A stretch of 41,083 bases of DNA, taken from positions 103,984-145,066 of the forward strand of contig CACYPV010000011.1 in NCBI GenBank assembly GCA_902776375.1. Reading direction: 5' to 3'. The DNA comes from an uncultured Ruminococcus sp. (GTDB lineage Bacteria > Bacillota > Clostridia > Oscillospirales > Acutalibacteraceae). The position numbers were made by a program, and so were the translations under genes. The notes beneath the pieces are model-generated. The model worked only from the letters and a program-made list of their open reading frames with translations. It was not told the DNA's origin and ran no database searches. How positions within the stretch are numbered: position 1 is the first letter of the stretch; each line of letters starts with the position of its first letter. Below are positions 15,605 to 21,852 of the stretch, piece after piece.

Positions 15605-15853
15605 ATGAGATTACGCAAACAGGAATTGGGAGATAGAAATCTGGTAGGCAACCGTGTAGAGCTTGTCAGAAAGCAAAAGGGTATGAAGCAGAAGGAACTG
15701 CTGGCGCAGCTTCAGGTAAACGGCGTCGATATGAACGCGTCCGGCCTTTCCAAGCTTGAGGGTCAGATCCGTTTCGTCACAGACGTTGAGCTTGTCGCTC
15801 TTGCCGATATCCTTGAAGTTTCGGTAGATTATCTTCTCGGCAGGGAAAAGTAA
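15605..15853 (+). CDS. Small XRE-family helix-turn-helix regulator
   Basis: This 82-residue protein is a single Cro/C1-type DNA-binding domain. It has a helical start (LVGNRVELVRKQKGMKQKELL), a recognition region ASGLSKLEGQIRF, and the usual end LADILEVSVDYLLGREK. There is no sensor or oligomerisation domain, so it may act as a constitutive or self-tuned repressor. The ggagag site sits 9-10 bp before the ATG. It has its own promoter and two terminators after it, and is the gene immediately upstream of the 600-nt RNA locus. A control link to that locus is possible but not shown. Targets are unknown. Confidence 0.88.
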   Translation: MRLRKQELGDRNLVGNRVELVRKQKGMKQKELLAQLQVNGVDMNASGLSKLEGQIRFVTDVELVALADILEVSVDYLLGREK

Positions 15854-15856
15854 GAT

Positions 15857-15918
15857 CCCGCCGTCCGGTCCGCCCATGTTCTCACCGTGTTATCCAGGTG
15901 AGACGGCGGGCTTTTTTT
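15857..15918 (+). terminator. Long two-part terminator hairpin of the XRE gene
   Basis: The outer arms cccgccgtc and gacggcggg enclose an inner stem ctcacc/ggtgag, followed by T7. It begins only 4 bp after the stop codon. Confidence 0.88.
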
Positions 15919-15926
15919 ATTATTAA

Positions 15927-15957
15927 AAAGCCCTAAACCGATCAGGTTTAGGGCTTT
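15927..15957. terminator. Second hairpin, symmetric terminator
   Basis: A perfect 13-bp stem (aaagccctaaacc/ggtttagggcttt) with a gatca loop has A and T runs at its edges, so it can work in both directions as a back-up insulator. Confidence 0.7.
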
Positions 15958-16050
15958 AATACACTCTCGCACTTATTATTATATCACTATCCTCAGTCAA
16001 TTGCAATAGGTTTTTGAAAAATAAAATTTTAAATATTTTTATAAAAAGTA

Positions 16051-16078
16051 TTGACATTGTTATAATCTATGGTATAAT
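16051..16078 (+). promoter_or_regulatory. Perfect consensus promoter of the 600-nt RNA unit
   Basis: TTGACA (16051-16056) and TATAAT (16073-16078) are both exact consensus, 16 bp apart. Transcription should begin near 16085. This is the strongest-looking promoter in the window. Confidence 0.88.
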
Positions 16079-16115
16079 ATAGACAAAGATAAAGAAAAGC
16101 AAGGAGGTCTTCCAG

Positions 16116-16223
16116 ATGAAAGTTAAGATTATTCAAATCAGAGCGATCAAAGATTTCATTCGGAGCTTACCACCCAATGTAGAGTCCCAAAGCTTTTGGG
16201 CGAAGGGAAACGTAACTTATTAA
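16116..16223 (+). CDS. 35-residue ORF at the 5' end of the large RNA
   Basis: An ATG at 16116 follows a full aaggagg site by 8 bases, the ideal spacing, and opens a 35-codon frame (MKVKIIQIRAIKDFIRSLPP..., ending ...WAKGNVTY). The product would be basic, with no signal peptide, no transmembrane segment and no cysteines, and I do not recognise it. Its 3' half coincides with a hairpin (16186-16200) and a tcccaaag element resembling the downstream 53-nt repeats. The same bases may therefore serve RNA structure, and translation may act as a switch on folding. It could also be a fortuitous frame. Confidence 0.45.
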   Translation: MKVKIIQIRAIKDFIRSLPPNVESQSFWAKGNVTY

Positions 16224-16457
16224 GTCGAATATCAGCTAATCAGTTTTAGATGTTATTAAACATAATTATCGTAGTTTGGATTAAGACTTGAATTCGTTGC
16301 AGGAAAACTAAGGACACAAACTCAACTTTCATTTTTTGATATATTAAGTTTTCCGCCTTGGTAAGAGATGTTTCGGTGAGCAGCAAGAGTGTTTGGGATC
16401 AACGGACTTCTTACAATTTAATATTAAGTTACTTTTGAATAACCGATCTCAGTGATA

Positions 16458-16671
16458 GGAGATTAGTCCCATGAGAAGTTTAAGCTTTTAACCGATTATT
16501 CTACGAAACCGGAGAAGGTCCAATGTAATACTTAATTGATTAAACGGTTTATTCTAAGCAAAGCGAGGATTATTCCCATGTACACGGTAAGGACGATTCA
16601 GACATTCCTGTAGATATTGGAGTGAGTCCCAAGTATAGTTTAGTTTAAAAGTAATCGAACGGTCGGCAAGT
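16458..16671 (+). repeat. Four imperfect 53-nt repeats inside the RNA
   Basis: Units begin at 16458, 16511, 16564 and 16619 (steps 53, 53, 55). Each has GGAG or CGAG, then 4-6 nt, then TCCCATG/TCCAATG/TCCCATG/TCCCAAG, then ...TTA or ...GTA, and the first three end in a TTATTCTA-like segment or its variant. A weaker fifth unit may start near 16404. A step of 53 is not a multiple of 3, arguing against coding repeats. Confidence 0.65.
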
Positions 16672-16689
16672 GCACTGCCGACCGTTTTT
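16659..16689 (+). terminator. Strong terminator of the 600-nt RNA
   Basis: A perfect 10-bp GC-rich stem, acggtcggca (16659-16668) and tgccgaccgt (16676-16685), has a 7-nt loop and runs into five T residues. Confidence 0.95.
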
Positions 16690-16721
16690 GCGTGCGCGTG
16701 AATTTTATCCGATCAACAGTA

Positions 16722-16749
16722 AAAGGCAGACTCAAACGAGCCTGCCTTT
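16722..16749. terminator. Hairpin downstream of pgm
   Basis: The stem aaaggcag/ctgccttt is T-rich on both sides. It can end leftward pgm transcripts and back up the RNA terminator. Confidence 0.7.
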
Positions 16750-16763
16750 CTTTTTGATTATAA

Positions 16764-16799
16764 CAATTACGAATTATGCATTACGAATCACGCATTGAT
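16764..16799. repeat. Heptamer array (ATTACGA type)
   Basis: Five units of exactly 7 bp, attacga attatgc attacga atcacgc attgatt, lie against the pgm stop codon. Confidence 0.75.
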
Positions 16800-18521
16800 T
16801 CAAAGTCCGAGGATCTCCTTTGCGGAATCTACAAGCGTCTTGCAAACCTCAAGCGCCTCGTCCTTTGTTTTGCCGACGGCTGTTACATAGAGCTTGATCT
16901 TGGGCTCGGTGCCGCTGGGACGGATTATCACCGCGTTGTCGCCTTCAAGGTGTAGCGCGATGACGTTGGAGGTGGGGAGGGTGAGCTTTTCGGTTTTGCC
17001 CGTAAGCAGATCGGTTTCTTCTTTGAGCTGATAGTCGCTTACCTTGACCACCTTGTAGCCACCCACAGCTTCGGGGATGTCGTTTCTGACGGCTGTCATC
17101 ATGTCCGCCATCTTCTGCATGCCTGAGGCGCCCTCAAACTCAAACGCGAAGGTCTGGTTGAGGTAGAAGCCGAATTCGTCGTACAGTCCGTCGATGACCT
17201 CGGCGAGAGACCTGCCCTGCTTTCTGTAATAAGCGGTCATCTCAGCGACGAGCATAGATGCTACAACCGCGTCCTTGTCACGAACATAGGTGCCGGCGAG
17301 GTAGCCGTAGCTCTCCTCAAAGCCGAACAGATAGCGATCTTCTTCGCCCTTCTGCTCTAAGCCGAGAATTACCTCTCCGATGTATTTGAAGCCCGTGAGC
17401 ACGTTTTTGAGCTCGCAGCCGTACTTTTCGCACAGCTTGTTGATAAGCTTAGTGGTGACTATAGTCTTAACCACAACGGGATTCTCGGGCAGTTTGCCGG
17501 CTTCCTTCTTGCAGGAGAGGATGTAGTTAGTCAGCATAACGCCGTCCTCGTTGCCGGTGATAAGGCGGTAGCTGCCGTCGTAGTCGCGCACGGCGATGCC
17601 CACACGGTCGGCGTCGGGGTCGGTGGCGAGAAGCAGGTCGGGCTGCTCCTTTTCGCAGAGCTCCAAGCCCTTTTGCAGCGCTTCCTTGATCTCGGGGTTG
17701 GGGTAGGGGCAGGTGGTGAAATTGCCGTCGGGCAGCTCCTGCTCCTTGACGATCACTACGTCGTCAACGCCGATCTCTTTAAGAACTCTTCTTACCAGCT
17801 TGTTTCCGCAGCCGTTGAGCGGAGTGTAGACTATCTTCATGCCCGCGCCCTTGCAGATGCCGGGGTTGACCTGCTGCTCGAGCACCTTCTCGATATAGCT
17901 GTCGTAAACGCTGTCGTCAACATATTCGATCATGCCGGATTTGAGCGCCTCGTCAAAGTCCGCGGTCTTGACGTCCTTGAACATGTCGAGCTTCTGGATC
18001 TCATCGTAAACCGCTGCAGCGGCGGCGTCAGTCATCTGGCAGCCGTCCTCGCCATAAGCCTTGTAGCCGTTGTATTTTGCGGGGTTGTGGCTTGCTGTCA
18101 CCATAATGCCCGCCTGACACTTGAAATAGCGTACGAGGTAGGAGAGCACCGGAGTGGGCTGCAGCTCGGTGGTGATGTATACCTTGATGCCGTTGGCAGC
18201 AAGCACCTTTGCCGCCTCGATCATAAACAGGTCGGCTTTGATGCGGCTGTCGTGCGATATCGCCACAGCACCCTTGCCGTACTTGTTGAGCACGTAGTTA
18301 GCCAAGCCCTGAGTAGCCTGACGAACAACGTAGATGTTCATGCGGTTGGTGCCGGCGCCGATAACGCCTCTAAGTCCGGCGGTGCCGAATTTGAGCGCGG
18401 TGTAGAAGCGGTCGCGGATCGCTTCTTCATCTCCTTGTATAGCTTTAAGTTCTTCAATCAAATCCTTATCTTCTGTGGCGTTTTCACACCAAATGTCGTA
18501 TAATGCTTTCTCTTTGATCAT
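16800..18521 (-). CDS. pgcA: Alpha-phosphoglucomutase (phosphohexomutase family)
   Basis: The enzyme interconverts glucose 1-phosphate and glucose 6-phosphate, linking glycolysis to UDP-glucose and cell-surface glycan synthesis. The 573-residue length fits the PgcA type. Motifs are GTAGLRG (46-52), the catalytic phosphoserine S144 in TASHNPAKYNG, the metal loop DPDADRVGIAV, the sugar loop FGFEESYGYL and the C-terminal phosphate loop RPSGTEPKIKLY. The start has a gggggaa site. Adjacent surface-glycan genes suggest a supply role. A phosphomannomutase or mixed activity cannot be excluded. Confidence 0.92.
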   Translation of the reverse strand: MIKEKALYDIWCENATEDKDLIEELKAIQGDEEAIRDRFYTALKFGTAGLRGVIGAGTNRMNIYVVRQATQGLANYVLNKYGKGAVAISHDSRIKADLFMIEAAKVLAANGIKVYITTELQPTPVLSYLVRYFKCQAGIMVTASHNPAKYNGYKAYGEDGCQMTDAAAAAVYDEIQKLDMFKDVKTADFDEALKSGMIEYVDDSVYDSYIEKVLEQQVNPGICKGAGMKIVYTPLNGCGNKLVRRVLKEIGVDDVVIVKEQELPDGNFTTCPYPNPEIKEALQKGLELCEKEQPDLLLATDPDADRVGIAVRDYDGSYRLITGNEDGVMLTNYILSCKKEAGKLPENPVVVKTIVTTKLINKLCEKYGCELKNVLTGFKYIGEVILGLEQKGEEDRYLFGFEESYGYLAGTYVRDKDAVVASMLVAEMTAYYRKQGRSLAEVIDGLYDEFGFYLNQTFAFEFEGASGMQKMADMMTAVRNDIPEAVGGYKVVKVSDYQLKEETDLLTGKTEKLTLPTSNVIALHLEGDNAVIIRPSGTEPKIKLYVTAVGKTKDEALEVCKTLVDSAKEILGL

Positions 18522-18725: not shown

Positions 18726-18775
18726 ACTAGCCTCTAGCATCTAGCCTCTAGCTTCTAGCCTCTAGCTTCTAGCCT
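18726..18775. repeat. Heptamer array (CTAGCNT type)
   Basis: Seven 7-bp units alternating ctagcct, ctagcat and ctagctt. The array runs into the last codons of the fusion gene. Confidence 0.85.
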
Positions 18776-21700
18776 TGCTTTTCCAGCGCATAGCCCGCGT
18801 TCGTTGTGTGGTATTGATATCCCATATGGTTGAGCTCTGCCAGCAGCCAACCCATATCCCATTTGGAATCGTTCGGGACATAGATGTATTTAGGCGTTTT
18901 GTCTGGGTTGATCTTGTAGAACTCCTTCAGGCGTTTCAGCGAATTTGGCTTTTCGCCGGACAGCCACGCGGAAAACGTGCCGTAGGGCTTGTCAGCCGCA
19001 AGGTATATCCAGGTGCGTTCGGACAGCACGAGCAGGTTGTCGTCCTCTTTGCCCCAATACATCGAGATATCATCGTAAATCTGATCGTATGTCTGCGCTT
19101 TTTGATGAGTGGTGATAAGTCCCTCGGCGGGTCCCTGGGTTATCTCAAAGTTGACCTCGGTCGCCTGTGCGTCCCAGAAGCAGTGGCGCGCCTTTGAGCC
19201 GATCTCAAAGCAGCCCTGCAATATCAGCATAAACGCGACAGCCGCGAAGCTGCACCGCTTTACCCATACCGCGTAGGTGATGTTGTCGGGCGATTCCTGC
19301 ATTTCCTTAATGAGCTGTGCGAGGAACATGAGGCTTGCTATATTGACTGCTGCAAACGCCATAGATATGACGTAGAAGCCCTGATTCGAGGTGTAATGCA
19401 CGAAGAATGAATAGAGTATGCCAAGCACGAAAACTCCCGCGAAAAGCTCGCGCGGCTTGTTTTTGCAGAGCACATAAGAAGTGATGCCGATGAAAACAAG
19501 CGGGAACATGATGGCGTTGTATGTGGATTTGTGCAGCTCGGGGAAGATGAGCATGTAGGTGTACATCACTATGCCCGAGGTGATGATGAGATAAACCGAG
19601 CGGTGAAGCATTCTTTTGCGATCTATCAGCATAACGAGCGCCATTGCGCAGTAGCTGTAAATCGAATACTTGAAGTGCGGCTTCATGAAGAATATCGCCC
19701 TAAAGTATTTCCAAACCTTGTCGCCGAATTGTACGGGCGGATGCTCGGGATCCTTAAGCATGTACTGCAGGTTTTCAAACAGTCCGCTTATACCTACTCT
19801 CGGCAGGGTGAACAGCATGAAGATCACGGCAAGTATACCTGCTCCCAGTGTGAAGAACAGGAAGCTGCGCAGGCTGAACATATCGCTTTTAAGCACGAAG
19901 CGCAGGTCTTTGTTTTTGAGCAGCAGGTGGATACCCATGCAGACCGCGTAAATAACATAAACGATCAGCAGGTACGGGCAGCACAGCACCGCGCCGGCAA
20001 AGAACAGTCCGCTGAAGATCAGCGAGAGCTTCTTTTGATAATCCGCCGTTGCGAGCATCACTCCCGCCAAAGCCACAAGCTCAACGCCCATCGAGTCGTA
20101 GCTGAGCGACATGATGTTGTAGGGGGTGTAAATGAAGTACAGCACGCAGGCGATAACGGATATCACGCCGTATTTGCGCAGTCTTGTGTAAATGAGCACC
20201 GCAGCGCCGCAGTGGACGAACACATAAAATATGCGCGCCGCGAGGATGATGCCGTCGGTCGAGCCTGTGATGGTGGTGTATATCCATGTGAACGGCAGCT
20301 GCAGTATAGAGCACATCTGCGCGAGGTTCCATTCGTCGCGGAACAGCGCGTCGCCCTTTGTAAGGCGGTGGGGGATCGTGAGATAAAACGGTTCGTCGTT
20401 GCCGCCAAAGCCGTAGCGCGTTTTCCAAATAGAGAAAATGAACGCTGCGACCAACAGGGCGATGAACAAGAGATCCTGCCATTTCATATAGTTGGCTTTT
20501 TCTCTCTGCAATATCACAAAGGCTTTGATTTTCTGATAAAGAATTATAAGTCCCTTTGCCGCCGCTGTCAGAATGAACGACGAGATCATCGACAGCACGA
20601 AGCAGATCAGCACGCACGGCAGATAGAACGGCAGCTTTTCATACACATTATCAAACCAGGTGTTGAGCACGCTGTTGTATATCAGCATGTCGAAGATGAA
20701 CGACAGCAGGTACATTCCGAAGGTGACGTCCGATATCTTCCACATCGCGAACCGAACCGTCGGGTGCCAGTTGTTGGCTTTTACGCGGCTGAGCATCGTG
20801 AACAGCAGCACCGCGGTGATGTAGGGGATAACGCCGTACCAGTATATCCACGAGCCGCTTTGGAACTTGCTGCCGTAGCTGCGGTACTGGCAGTAGGCGG
20901 TGAACAGGAAGGTCAGTATGGCGAACAGCGGCAGCATTGAGCGGGTTTTGAGCTTTATGCCGTATTCGCGGATGTACGCGCCCGTAAAGTAGTAAGCAAG
21001 CGGGTACATGCTGCCCATCCAGAACGAGGGGATAAGCTTTTGATATCCCTTAGTGTCGCTCACGGGGTTGAGCCACCAGTCGGCGGAGTTGAATTTAAAG
21101 GAGTTTATAAGCGAGGGGAGGATGGCTAAAAACACCATCGTAGCCACCAGCACCTGCTTTTTCCGCTTAGAGCCGAGCTTGTTGTAGGCGAGATTCAGGA
21201 AGGGCGCGATAAGGAACAGCCCGACATACATCTCGACGTACCACGCGTAGTTGGCGCCGGAGAAACCGAATATGCTGAATATGTAGTCCTTTAGCTCATA
21301 ACTTTTTGATTTGGCTATCGCGTCGAACATGCCGGCAAAGTCAAAGTCCCAAAAGGCTTCCTTTGCCGCGGGGATCAGGTAGACCGACTTAAAGAACATG
21401 CAGACGATGCAGGCGAGCACGAATATCACCAAGGTTTTGCGGATGCCTAAGTAGTATTTGCGGCTGAGTACCTTTTTGCTCATCAGGTAGCCGGTAAGTA
21501 TCATGAATAATGGAACGCACGCCGAGAACAGCACCTTCATCAAAATAAGAAGGAACATCAACGGCCCGTGCAGACAGTCGATATCGCCGGTCTCAAAGTA
21601 TTTGAAAATGCCCTCTATCGGGCCCATACCGTCTATCTTTACGTTGTAAAAACCGTCCCTTACGTGGTTTTCAACGGTTTTAGAGGTGTGGTACAAAAAG

Positions 21701-21783
21701 TGCACCGACATCACCAGAAAGACAGCGACGATACGGATAAGATCCATACTTGAATTACGGCGATCAAGTTTTACGCGATTCAT
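18769..21783 (-). CDS. Membrane fusion: acyltransferase-3 domain plus GT-C-like polytopic domain
   Basis: The first ~425 of 1004 residues are an acyltransferase-3 (OafA/WecH-like) domain: RRNSSMDLIRIVAVFLVMSV with a following HFLYH, then about ten transmembrane helices. Such enzymes acetylate or acylate surface sugars from the cytoplasm. A linker (about 430-450) leads to a second polytopic module opening with a short loop GFGGNDEPFYL...P-R. This resembles the first extracellular acidic loop of GT-C transferases (ArnT/PMT-like), which use lipid-linked sugars. It ends in a soluble C-terminal region. The start at 21783 is chosen because aaggaga lies 7 bp before it; an ATG 9 codons upstream lacks a site. 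Its gene follows the SGNH gene after a terminator. Exact donor and acceptor are unknown. Confidence 0.75.
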   Translation of the reverse strand: MNRVKLDRRNSSMDLIRIVAVFLVMSVHFLYHTSKTVENHVRDGFYNVKIDGMGPIEGIFKYFETGDIDCLHGPLMFLLILMKVLFSACVPLFMILTGYLMSKKVLSRKYYLGIRKTLVIFVLACIVCMFFKSVYLIPAAKEAFWDFDFAGMFDAIAKSKSYELKDYIFSIFGFSGANYAWYVEMYVGLFLIAPFLNLAYNKLGSKRKKQVLVATMVFLAILPSLINSFKFNSADWWLNPVSDTKGYQKLIPSFWMGSMYPLAYYFTGAYIREYGIKLKTRSMLPLFAILTFLFTAYCQYRSYGSKFQSGSWIYWYGVIPYITAVLLFTMLSRVKANNWHPTVRFAMWKISDVTFGMYLLSFIFDMLIYNSVLNTWFDNVYEKLPFYLPCVLICFVLSMISSFILTAAAKGLIILYQKIKAFVILQREKANYMKWQDLLFIALLVAAFIFSIWKTRYGFGGNDEPFYLTIPHRLTKGDALFRDEWNLAQMCSILQLPFTWIYTTITGSTDGIILAARIFYVFVHCGAAVLIYTRLRKYGVISVIACVLYFIYTPYNIMSLSYDSMGVELVALAGVMLATADYQKKLSLIFSGLFFAGAVLCCPYLLIVYVIYAVCMGIHLLLKNKDLRFVLKSDMFSLRSFLFFTLGAGILAVIFMLFTLPRVGISGLFENLQYMLKDPEHPPVQFGDKVWKYFRAIFFMKPHFKYSIYSYCAMALVMLIDRKRMLHRSVYLIITSGIVMYTYMLIFPELHKSTYNAIMFPLVFIGITSYVLCKNKPRELFAGVFVLGILYSFFVHYTSNQGFYVISMAFAAVNIASLMFLAQLIKEMQESPDNITYAVWVKRCSFAAVAFMLILQGCFEIGSKARHCFWDAQATEVNFEITQGPAEGLITTHQKAQTYDQIYDDISMYWGKEDDNLLVLSERTWIYLAADKPYGTFSAWLSGEKPNSLKRLKEFYKINPDKTPKYIYVPNDSKWDMGWLLAELNHMGYQYHTTNAGYALEKQG

Positions 21784-21852
21784 TGCTTCTCTCCTTGCTT
21801 GGATTTTCATAGATATTTTAAATATATCACATTTTACTGCATTTTACAACCA

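Follow-up and report, generated by a model that had tools for sequence, protein, structure and literature searches.

A putative free-standing RNA of Ruminococcus with a conserved short reading frame and a row of Shine-Dalgarno-start-stop modules, a candidate ribosome-engaging RNA

In the analyzed stretch of DNA, 41,083 nucleotides from an uncultured Ruminococcus sp. (contig CACYPV010000011.1; hereafter the window), we found a free-standing unit of ~600 nt between a promoter at 16051-16078 and a terminator stem at 16658-16686. This predicted transcription unit is undescribed, lies outside Rfam, carries its own promoter, and is conserved within one genus. Comparison of homologues supports its anatomy of promoter, short open reading frame (ORF1), modules consisting of a Shine-Dalgarno (SD) sequence, a start, and a stop, and terminator, with both the transcript and its translation being putative. 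Our best explanation, to which we assign a probability of roughly 0.4, is that the RNA is free-standing and trans-acting and would engage or park several ribosomes. The features of the locus are as follows.

16017..16050, + strand: A/T-rich block 5′ of the −35 element, possibly UP-element-like; numerous columns invariant among the 31 aligned rows.
16051..16078, + strand: promoter TTGACA-N16-TATAAT; 12/12 consensus match, TTGACA in 31/31 aligned rows.
16101..16107, + strand: SD sequence AAGGAGG of ORF1, 8 nt 5′ of the ATG; GGAGG in 31/31 rows.
16116..16223, + strand: ORF1, 35 codons (MKVKIIQIRAIKDFIRSLPPNVESQSFWAKGNVTY), conserved over codons 1-21; codon-level conservation, RS[LF]PPN in 79/79 RNAs.
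16161..16178, + strand: internal GGAG resembling an SD, ahead of the codons for Leu-Pro-Pro-Asn, a proposed pause site; GGAG in 79/79 RNAs.
16186..16397, + strand: folded middle domain with a long outer helix, a helix 16215-16224/16357-16366, and inner hairpins; covariation.
16458..16491, + strand: module 1, GGAG-ATTAGTCCC-ATG, mini-ORF MRSLSF-stop; frame-0 stop enrichment across the family.
16511..16528, + strand: module 2, GGAG-AAGGTCCA-ATG-TAA, start-stop (M-stop); module pattern.
16565..16613, + strand: module 3, GAGG-ATTATTCCC-ATG, mini-ORF MYTVRTIQTFL-stop; module pattern, at 11 codons long for a module.
16619..16648, + strand: module 4 (last), GGAGTGAGTCCC-AAG, with an in-frame GTG at 16622 and the stop TAA at 16646-16648; AAG modules are last in 42/43.
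16658..16689, + strand: predicted intrinsic terminator with an 11-bp stem and a 7-nt loop, then T; terminators in homologues.

The exact TTGACA-N16-TATAAT pointed out in an earlier note on this DNA is present at all 12 positions and was the sole 12-of-12 match among those listed in 14.5-18 kb, a scan that gave 10 promoter-like sites compared to a shuffle mean of 4.0. The 31 alignment rows had been excised by locating TTGACA, and no row was lost for want of it. From the promoter only, we infer that the RNA is abundant. The terminator, previously described as a 10-bp stem with T5, has a perfect stem of 11 bp (16658-16668/16676-16686); the T5 (16685-16689) is likewise present, although two of its T belong to the stem. 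In the terminator scan, this stem is reported for the minus strand alone, so that its placement on the + strand rests on the sequence and the homologues. A terminator was found near the equivalent place in 28/34 homologues (none in 6/34) and in 21/21 loci of the clade that we call D, with the stems of homologues differing in sequence from that of the window; over the set used for counting modules, the search detected none in 14/79 RNAs.

Rfam covariance models gave 0 matches in the window at the gathering threshold, and relaxed thresholds at 15850-16850 returned only scores far under the gathering scores. The same search on the RNAs of 20 homologous loci gave no match for the RNA, the single match being a tRNA gene, and the tmRNA model matched neither the window nor these loci. 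Together with conservation in the genus, the search without a match agrees with the earlier claim of an undescribed RNA family; the kinship with ROOL, GOLLD, or OLE suggested there found no Rfam counterpart.

The unit had also been placed outside the neighboring genes. Indeed, an XRE ORF of 82 aa (15605-15853) lies upstream and a convergent 573-aa ORF (16800-18521), which we take to be phosphoglucomutase, lies downstream; the terminators said to follow the XRE gene are visible by eye, but the scan does not list them on the + strand. In the set of loci around the window's clade, XRE is found upstream in 21/33 and a convergent phosphoglucomutase-like gene downstream in 17/33, with some genes hidden by contig ends or overlapping antisense ORFs. 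A functional link between the RNA and XRE was considered and rejected: we inspected 20 regions beside XRE, mostly from genomes without a BLAST match, and recognized XRE in 17, with the RNA downstream in just 3 (L105, L106, and L121); the clade D RNA sits elsewhere. XRE matches (E ≤ 0.001) occur in 149/161 genus genomes, some of them to other XRE proteins. The protein itself is nearly invariant, with 100% identity along all 82 aa in many genomes of the genus, and thus far more conserved than the neighboring RNA. Elsewhere in the window, positions 18769-21810 of the minus strand hold a 1013-aa ORF whose translation gives the impression of a fusion of an acyltransferase-like half with a second membrane half.

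The neighbors of clade D (loci L194-L217) differ, with a same-strand, presumably trkA-like gene downstream, beyond the terminator, in 14 loci but not in the rest. Another recurrent gene, of cluster C3, lies downstream of the clade D RNA in six loci. Because no downstream gene common to all clades was seen within 1.6-3.2 kb, a cis-regulated target is unlikely, and we infer a role in trans.

DNA relatives at E ≤ 0.001 were present in 39/161 genus genomes, and a draw of 250 family genomes gave DNA matches only in the window's own genome and one other (34 bases). Among the matches listed, a sequence model of the promoter and ORF1 was matched to its end in at least 80 of the 161 genus genomes; a match was counted if it reached position 157 or beyond, and 79 begin by position 12, G018 being cut by a contig end. 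None of the matches listed from 300 family genomes, at least 4 of which belong to the same genus, reached the model end outside the genus, where the best had 37 bits over model positions 10-119. In the raw tallies of 137/161 (genus) and 166/300 (family), many matches are partial and fall in the AT-rich promoter region. From end-reaching and neighboring matches we took 48 loci, 45 of which have an ORF containing RS[LF]PP; the rest are L215 (RS[LF]PP with a GGGGG SD), L217 (cut by a contig end), and L216 (a false match). A pattern scan identified carriers (35 stretches) in assemblies of Ruminococcus, Clostridia, and Clostridiales, some of them rumen-labeled, and in Ruminococcaceae bacterium P7. 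Regarding a phage origin, one pattern scan of viral contigs gave 0 matches with a pattern that suits the window's clade and not the clade D ORF1 codons. L006, L105, L106, L171 (the L035 locus), L172, and L177 (the L060 locus) form a clade with a diverged middle domain and an ORF1 of the type MMKRK../MMNKK..RHIKDFLRSLPPN[I/S]; a terminator search in L006, L105, L106, and L177 found none.

The earlier view that the locus has no long frame misses ORF1, a 35-codon frame that is preceded by an SD and shows conservation at the codon level. Across 33 distinct sequences (35 homologues), the variability of the first 21 codons was 0.48, 0.55, and 1.00 bits at codon positions 1, 2, and 3, respectively. 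The pN/pS of these 33 sequences was 0.39, with 0.04 over the last six codons and 0.48 over codons 2-15, and 3/300 column shuffles of a 15-sequence subset gave a value as low; for the codon test, the first M was removed from three MM starts. Part of the last codons is prescribed by the extraction pattern, yet this pattern suits 31/31 of the loci that BLAST found and that cleared the score filter. Divergent copies found via the model also retain the peptide (MLHRPYRISIKDLKRSLPPN, MKARKPYFKQIRDYMRSLPPNS.., and MKAKIPYNFRIMNYIRSLPPNV). Homologous ORF1 lengths are 20-35 codons, and the frame ends directly after the Asn of RS[LF]PPN in 17/79 RNAs and one residue on in 26/79.

The RS[LF]PPN motif is present in all 79 distinct RNAs, with Leu in 67 and Phe in 12. 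Its Arg-Ser codons are exclusively [C/A]GG-AGY (79/79; CGG 75, AGG 4; Ser AGY only), whereas for the second Pro all four codons occur (CCC 36, CCT 32, CCA 10, CCG 1). Thus, with GGAG retained and the second Pro codon variable, protein and RNA constraints seem to coincide in ORF1. From the end of the internal GG to the second Pro codon the distance is nine nucleotides, which is near the GG-to-start distance of the modules. In an RNAalifold prediction from 16 sequences, the SD of ORF1 is additionally paired with the codons for RSLP. In an E. coli efp-deletion profile, PPD and PPN are reported only among the pausing Pro-Pro-X motifs, strong pausing in the absence of EF-P was seen at just 2.8% of PPX motifs, and upstream internal SDs had no effect on EF-P-dependent efficiency (PMC4140641).

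Located 3′ of ORF1 are modules of the form GG-N-[T/A]CC-N-start, of which we counted 294 in 79 RNAs, with 3 or 4 per RNA in 65/79 (range 1-7). For these counts L216, L188, and L217 were excluded beforehand, and 82 RNAs became 79 after removal of exact duplicates over 200 nt, two near-identical pairs staying in. All loci were found through similarity to the promoter/ORF1 part, and the counts are not independent, as relatives share ancestry. The start triplets were ATG 237, AAG 43, GTG 8, GAG 3, TTG 2, and TAG 1, under a pattern that permitted only [AGT][TA]G at this place. The distance from the end of GG to the start triplet was 8-12 nt in 195/196 distinct modules. From start to start, the modules are spaced by a median of 55 nt (25-75%, 52-59; n = 215), with 147/215 spacings falling within 50-59 nt.

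An in-frame stop within four codons was found in 181 of the 219 distinct ATG/GTG/TTG modules, compared to 89 and 61 in the +1 and +2 frames, while 500 shuffles of the same composition gave a mean of 77.6 (sd 7.3; maximum 96). Clustering at 60% identity left 33/41 modules with an early in-frame stop versus 14 and 13 in the other frames (maximum of 1000 shuffles, 26), and a by-eye choice of a single RNA from each lineage (23 RNAs) gave 60/69 versus 29 and 20. ATGs outside modules in the same RNAs had a stop within four codons in 130/332 and within one codon in 66/332; short frames are thus common in this AT-rich RNA, and the information lies in the excess alone. Within six codons, the stops of 247 modules were TAA 150, TAG 59, and TGA 22. 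The commonest module peptides are M, MF, MR, MRS, MI, MYR, and MYA; 40/219 distinct modules are start-stop without a second codon, and the second codons are variable. In clade D, the start of module 1 is ATG or GTG in 19/19 rows, and the early in-frame stop is retained through indels (ATGTAA, GTGTAA, ATGTACATTTAA, and ATGTGCATTTGA). The peptides of the mini-ORFs thus vary while their shortness and the ~55-nt spacing persist, which makes ribosome binding and abortive termination, not the peptide, their likely function.

The AAG modules (43/294) are terminal in their RNA in 42/43 cases. An in-frame NTG lies 9 nt upstream in 40/43 (ATG 15, GTG 15, TTG 8, CTG 2), and its frame meets a stop within six codons in 39/39 distinct modules, compared to 17 and 16 in the other frames. 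These modules may not initiate, because the upstream NTG has no well-spaced SD, and the NTG may be no start at all, because all four bases precede TG. AAG modules may be remnants, or places at which translation re-initiates.

Predicted pairing of the modules with a 16S tail is stronger than that of spacer-shuffled controls, at −11.8 versus −10.0 kcal/mol (n = 176); this is inseparable from self-pairing, because GGAG..TCC fits both. A scan for the module pattern gave 10 sites in the window's genome (2 in the locus) versus 4 in the reversed control, and 4-24 versus 2-14 in seven other genomes, among which G106 stands out through a repeat and G200 is of another genus. In G106, GGAGAGAAGTCCCATG occurs six times outside the RNA locus (contigs C52, C62, C63, C82, C83, and C86), probably as a repeat that carries a start site itself. 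Within ~570 nt of the predicted transcript start, L212 and L215 have gained modules as similar adjoining copies, with 7 modules in L215, suggestive of recent expansion.

The earlier proposal of a structured RNA holds for the middle domain, where covariation is strong, but not in the sense of a purely noncoding RNA, given ORF1, the minigenes, and smaller homologues without this domain. In 22 long homologues, 36 pairs were identified, 23 of which had changed on both sides; 87.4% of cells were paired versus at most 53.0% with partners slid, and 0/500 shuffles reached any of the five observed measures. Loci without a found end motif and distant clades were excluded from this 22-row alignment, and kinship of the sequences inflates both the covariation and the hairpin counts given below. 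The complementary pair gaataaccg/cggtttattc, offered earlier as an example, is not conserved in homologue alignments as judged by eye. Folding of the window's RNA was better than in 20/20 shuffles (z = −1.95), a result that is weak on its own. The clade D RNAs are smaller (326-571 nt) and lack the middle domain, while the promoter, ORF1, modules, and terminator are kept; these elements thus constitute the core. For 19 clade D rows (without L204, L195, L205, L209, L217, and L197, a near-duplicate), RNAalifold predicted 12 pairs, including two short, hardly varying module hairpins.

We consider it unlikely that the locus encodes a small-protein mRNA, with the 20-35-aa peptide as its product and the modules and fold serving to load ribosomes or to shield the message from RNases. 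Such a product would agree with the presence of ORF1 in 79/79 RNAs and with its codon-level conservation, and the two-codon minigene of axe-txe is reported to act in cis, possibly via higher mRNA stability (PMC8708949). However, a protective 3′ region needs neither SD-start-stop modules at 55-nt spacing nor a codon-costly internal GGAG. In addition, four ORF1 peptides matched no family in Pfam or NCBIfam, a weak point since such a search is little informative for 20-35 aa.

Since GG..CC also fits a small hairpin, the module could be a protein site. On this account, which appears rather unlikely, the RNA would be a sponge in the manner of CsrB/RsmZ, titrating an RNA-binding protein through GGA in small hairpins. 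The GGA is indeed repeated in GG..CC hairpins, the third pair of which is formed in 149/196 distinct modules compared to 120 (sd 5.1) under the null (A-T 119, T-A 27; unpaired A-A 31, T-T 15), and the RNAalifold prediction pairs two clade D modules. Nevertheless, CsrA was above the cut-off in 0/161 genus genomes, with 3 below it and 3/14 controls positive, although another protein might take its place, and a sponge leaves the start codons and the frame-specific stops unexplained.

It is improbable that the RNA inhibits translation as lambda bar does, through abortive translation and peptidyl-tRNA drop-off that would drain particular tRNAs or Pth. Many modules do contain two-codon minigenes (MF, MR, MI, or MC before the stop), with TAA as the commonest stop, and two codons, strong SDs, and UAA are reported to increase minigene toxicity (PMC8708949). 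Yet 40/219 modules are start-stop and second codons vary, so that no single tRNA would be drained; the constitutive-looking promoter would presumably make such an RNA costly, and the axe-txe minigene is reported as nontoxic in the same source. Last, an ordinary structured noncoding RNA in the style of ROOL, GOLLD, or OLE with incidental ORFs is very improbable despite the strong covariation of the middle domain, considering the coding and frame statistics, the Rfam search without a match, and clade D, which keeps ORF1 and the modules without that domain.

We thus return to a trans-acting RNA that would engage several ribosomes. In this model, ribosomes would load at each site along the RNA. 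The internal GGAG of ORF1 is placed such that a ribosome would have Pro-Pro in its P site and Asn in its A site, an arrangement at which ribosomes pause in other systems. A ribosome on a minigene would sit on the AUG, its A site taking either a stop codon or one codon that a stop follows. Common to both would be a GG-rich SD-like stretch at a fixed distance from the codon in the P site, with a codon in the A site that is slow or stops translation, and this arrangement would be repeated along the RNA. In this way, the RNA would act in trans, holding, counting, or buffering ribosomes or initiation factors. We put forward only tentatively the narrower version in which each site, whether the GGAG-Pro-Pro-Asn of ORF1 or the SD-start-stop of a module, parks one ribosome at ~55-nt intervals and the RNA stores or counts ribosomes.

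If true, the locus would represent a class of bacterial RNA in which what is conserved is a regular row of aborted starts of translation, and the question of whether cells use RNA to capture, measure, or store ribosomes becomes testable. The locus also supplies natural AUG-stop and Pro-Pro-Asn sites for study, and the coding part of such RNAs escapes small-ORF pipelines that impose a minimum length. Our literature search found no description of such an RNA, and our claim is limited to that search. To our knowledge, neither a free-standing RNA made of a minigene row nor, in bacteria, a ribosome-parking RNA acting as a buffer of translation capacity is known.

Among known systems, ROOL, GOLLD, OLE, and raiA are alike as large, free-standing structured bacterial RNAs; here, however, there is no sequence-structure match, putative translated elements are conserved, and smaller forms occur without the large fold. 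CsrB, RsmY, and RsmZ share repeated GGA modules in small hairpins, which here have only 3-4 bp, whereas the 161 genus genomes gave no CsrA over the cut-off. RNAIII and SgrS are dual-function RNAs and likewise carry a small conserved ORF within a structured, separately transcribed RNA, a likeness that here comes from sequence comparison only; neither is known to us to carry a row of start-stop sites. Arrest and leader peptides with EF-P-relieved Pro-Pro-X pausing resemble the C-terminal Pro-Pro-Asn, which often stands just 5′ of the stop, while classical leader peptides control a downstream gene in cis and here none is conserved across clades.

Lambda bar minigenes sit in a phage transcript. 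With these and with the axe-txe minigene, our modules have in common an SD, a start codon, zero to few codons, and a stop, here beyond chance. The two-codon axe-txe minigene is reported to be located in an mRNA leader and to act in cis and not in trans (PMC8708949). The AUGUAA stall element of plant NIP5;1, in which the start codon is directly followed by the stop, is also reported to hold ribosomes, but it is eukaryotic and located in an mRNA leader (PMC11915504). Unlike in lambda bar and axe-txe, where a phage transcript or mRNA leader contains one or two minigenes, the putative minigenes described here form a regular row in a free-standing chromosomal unit, after a conserved peptide.
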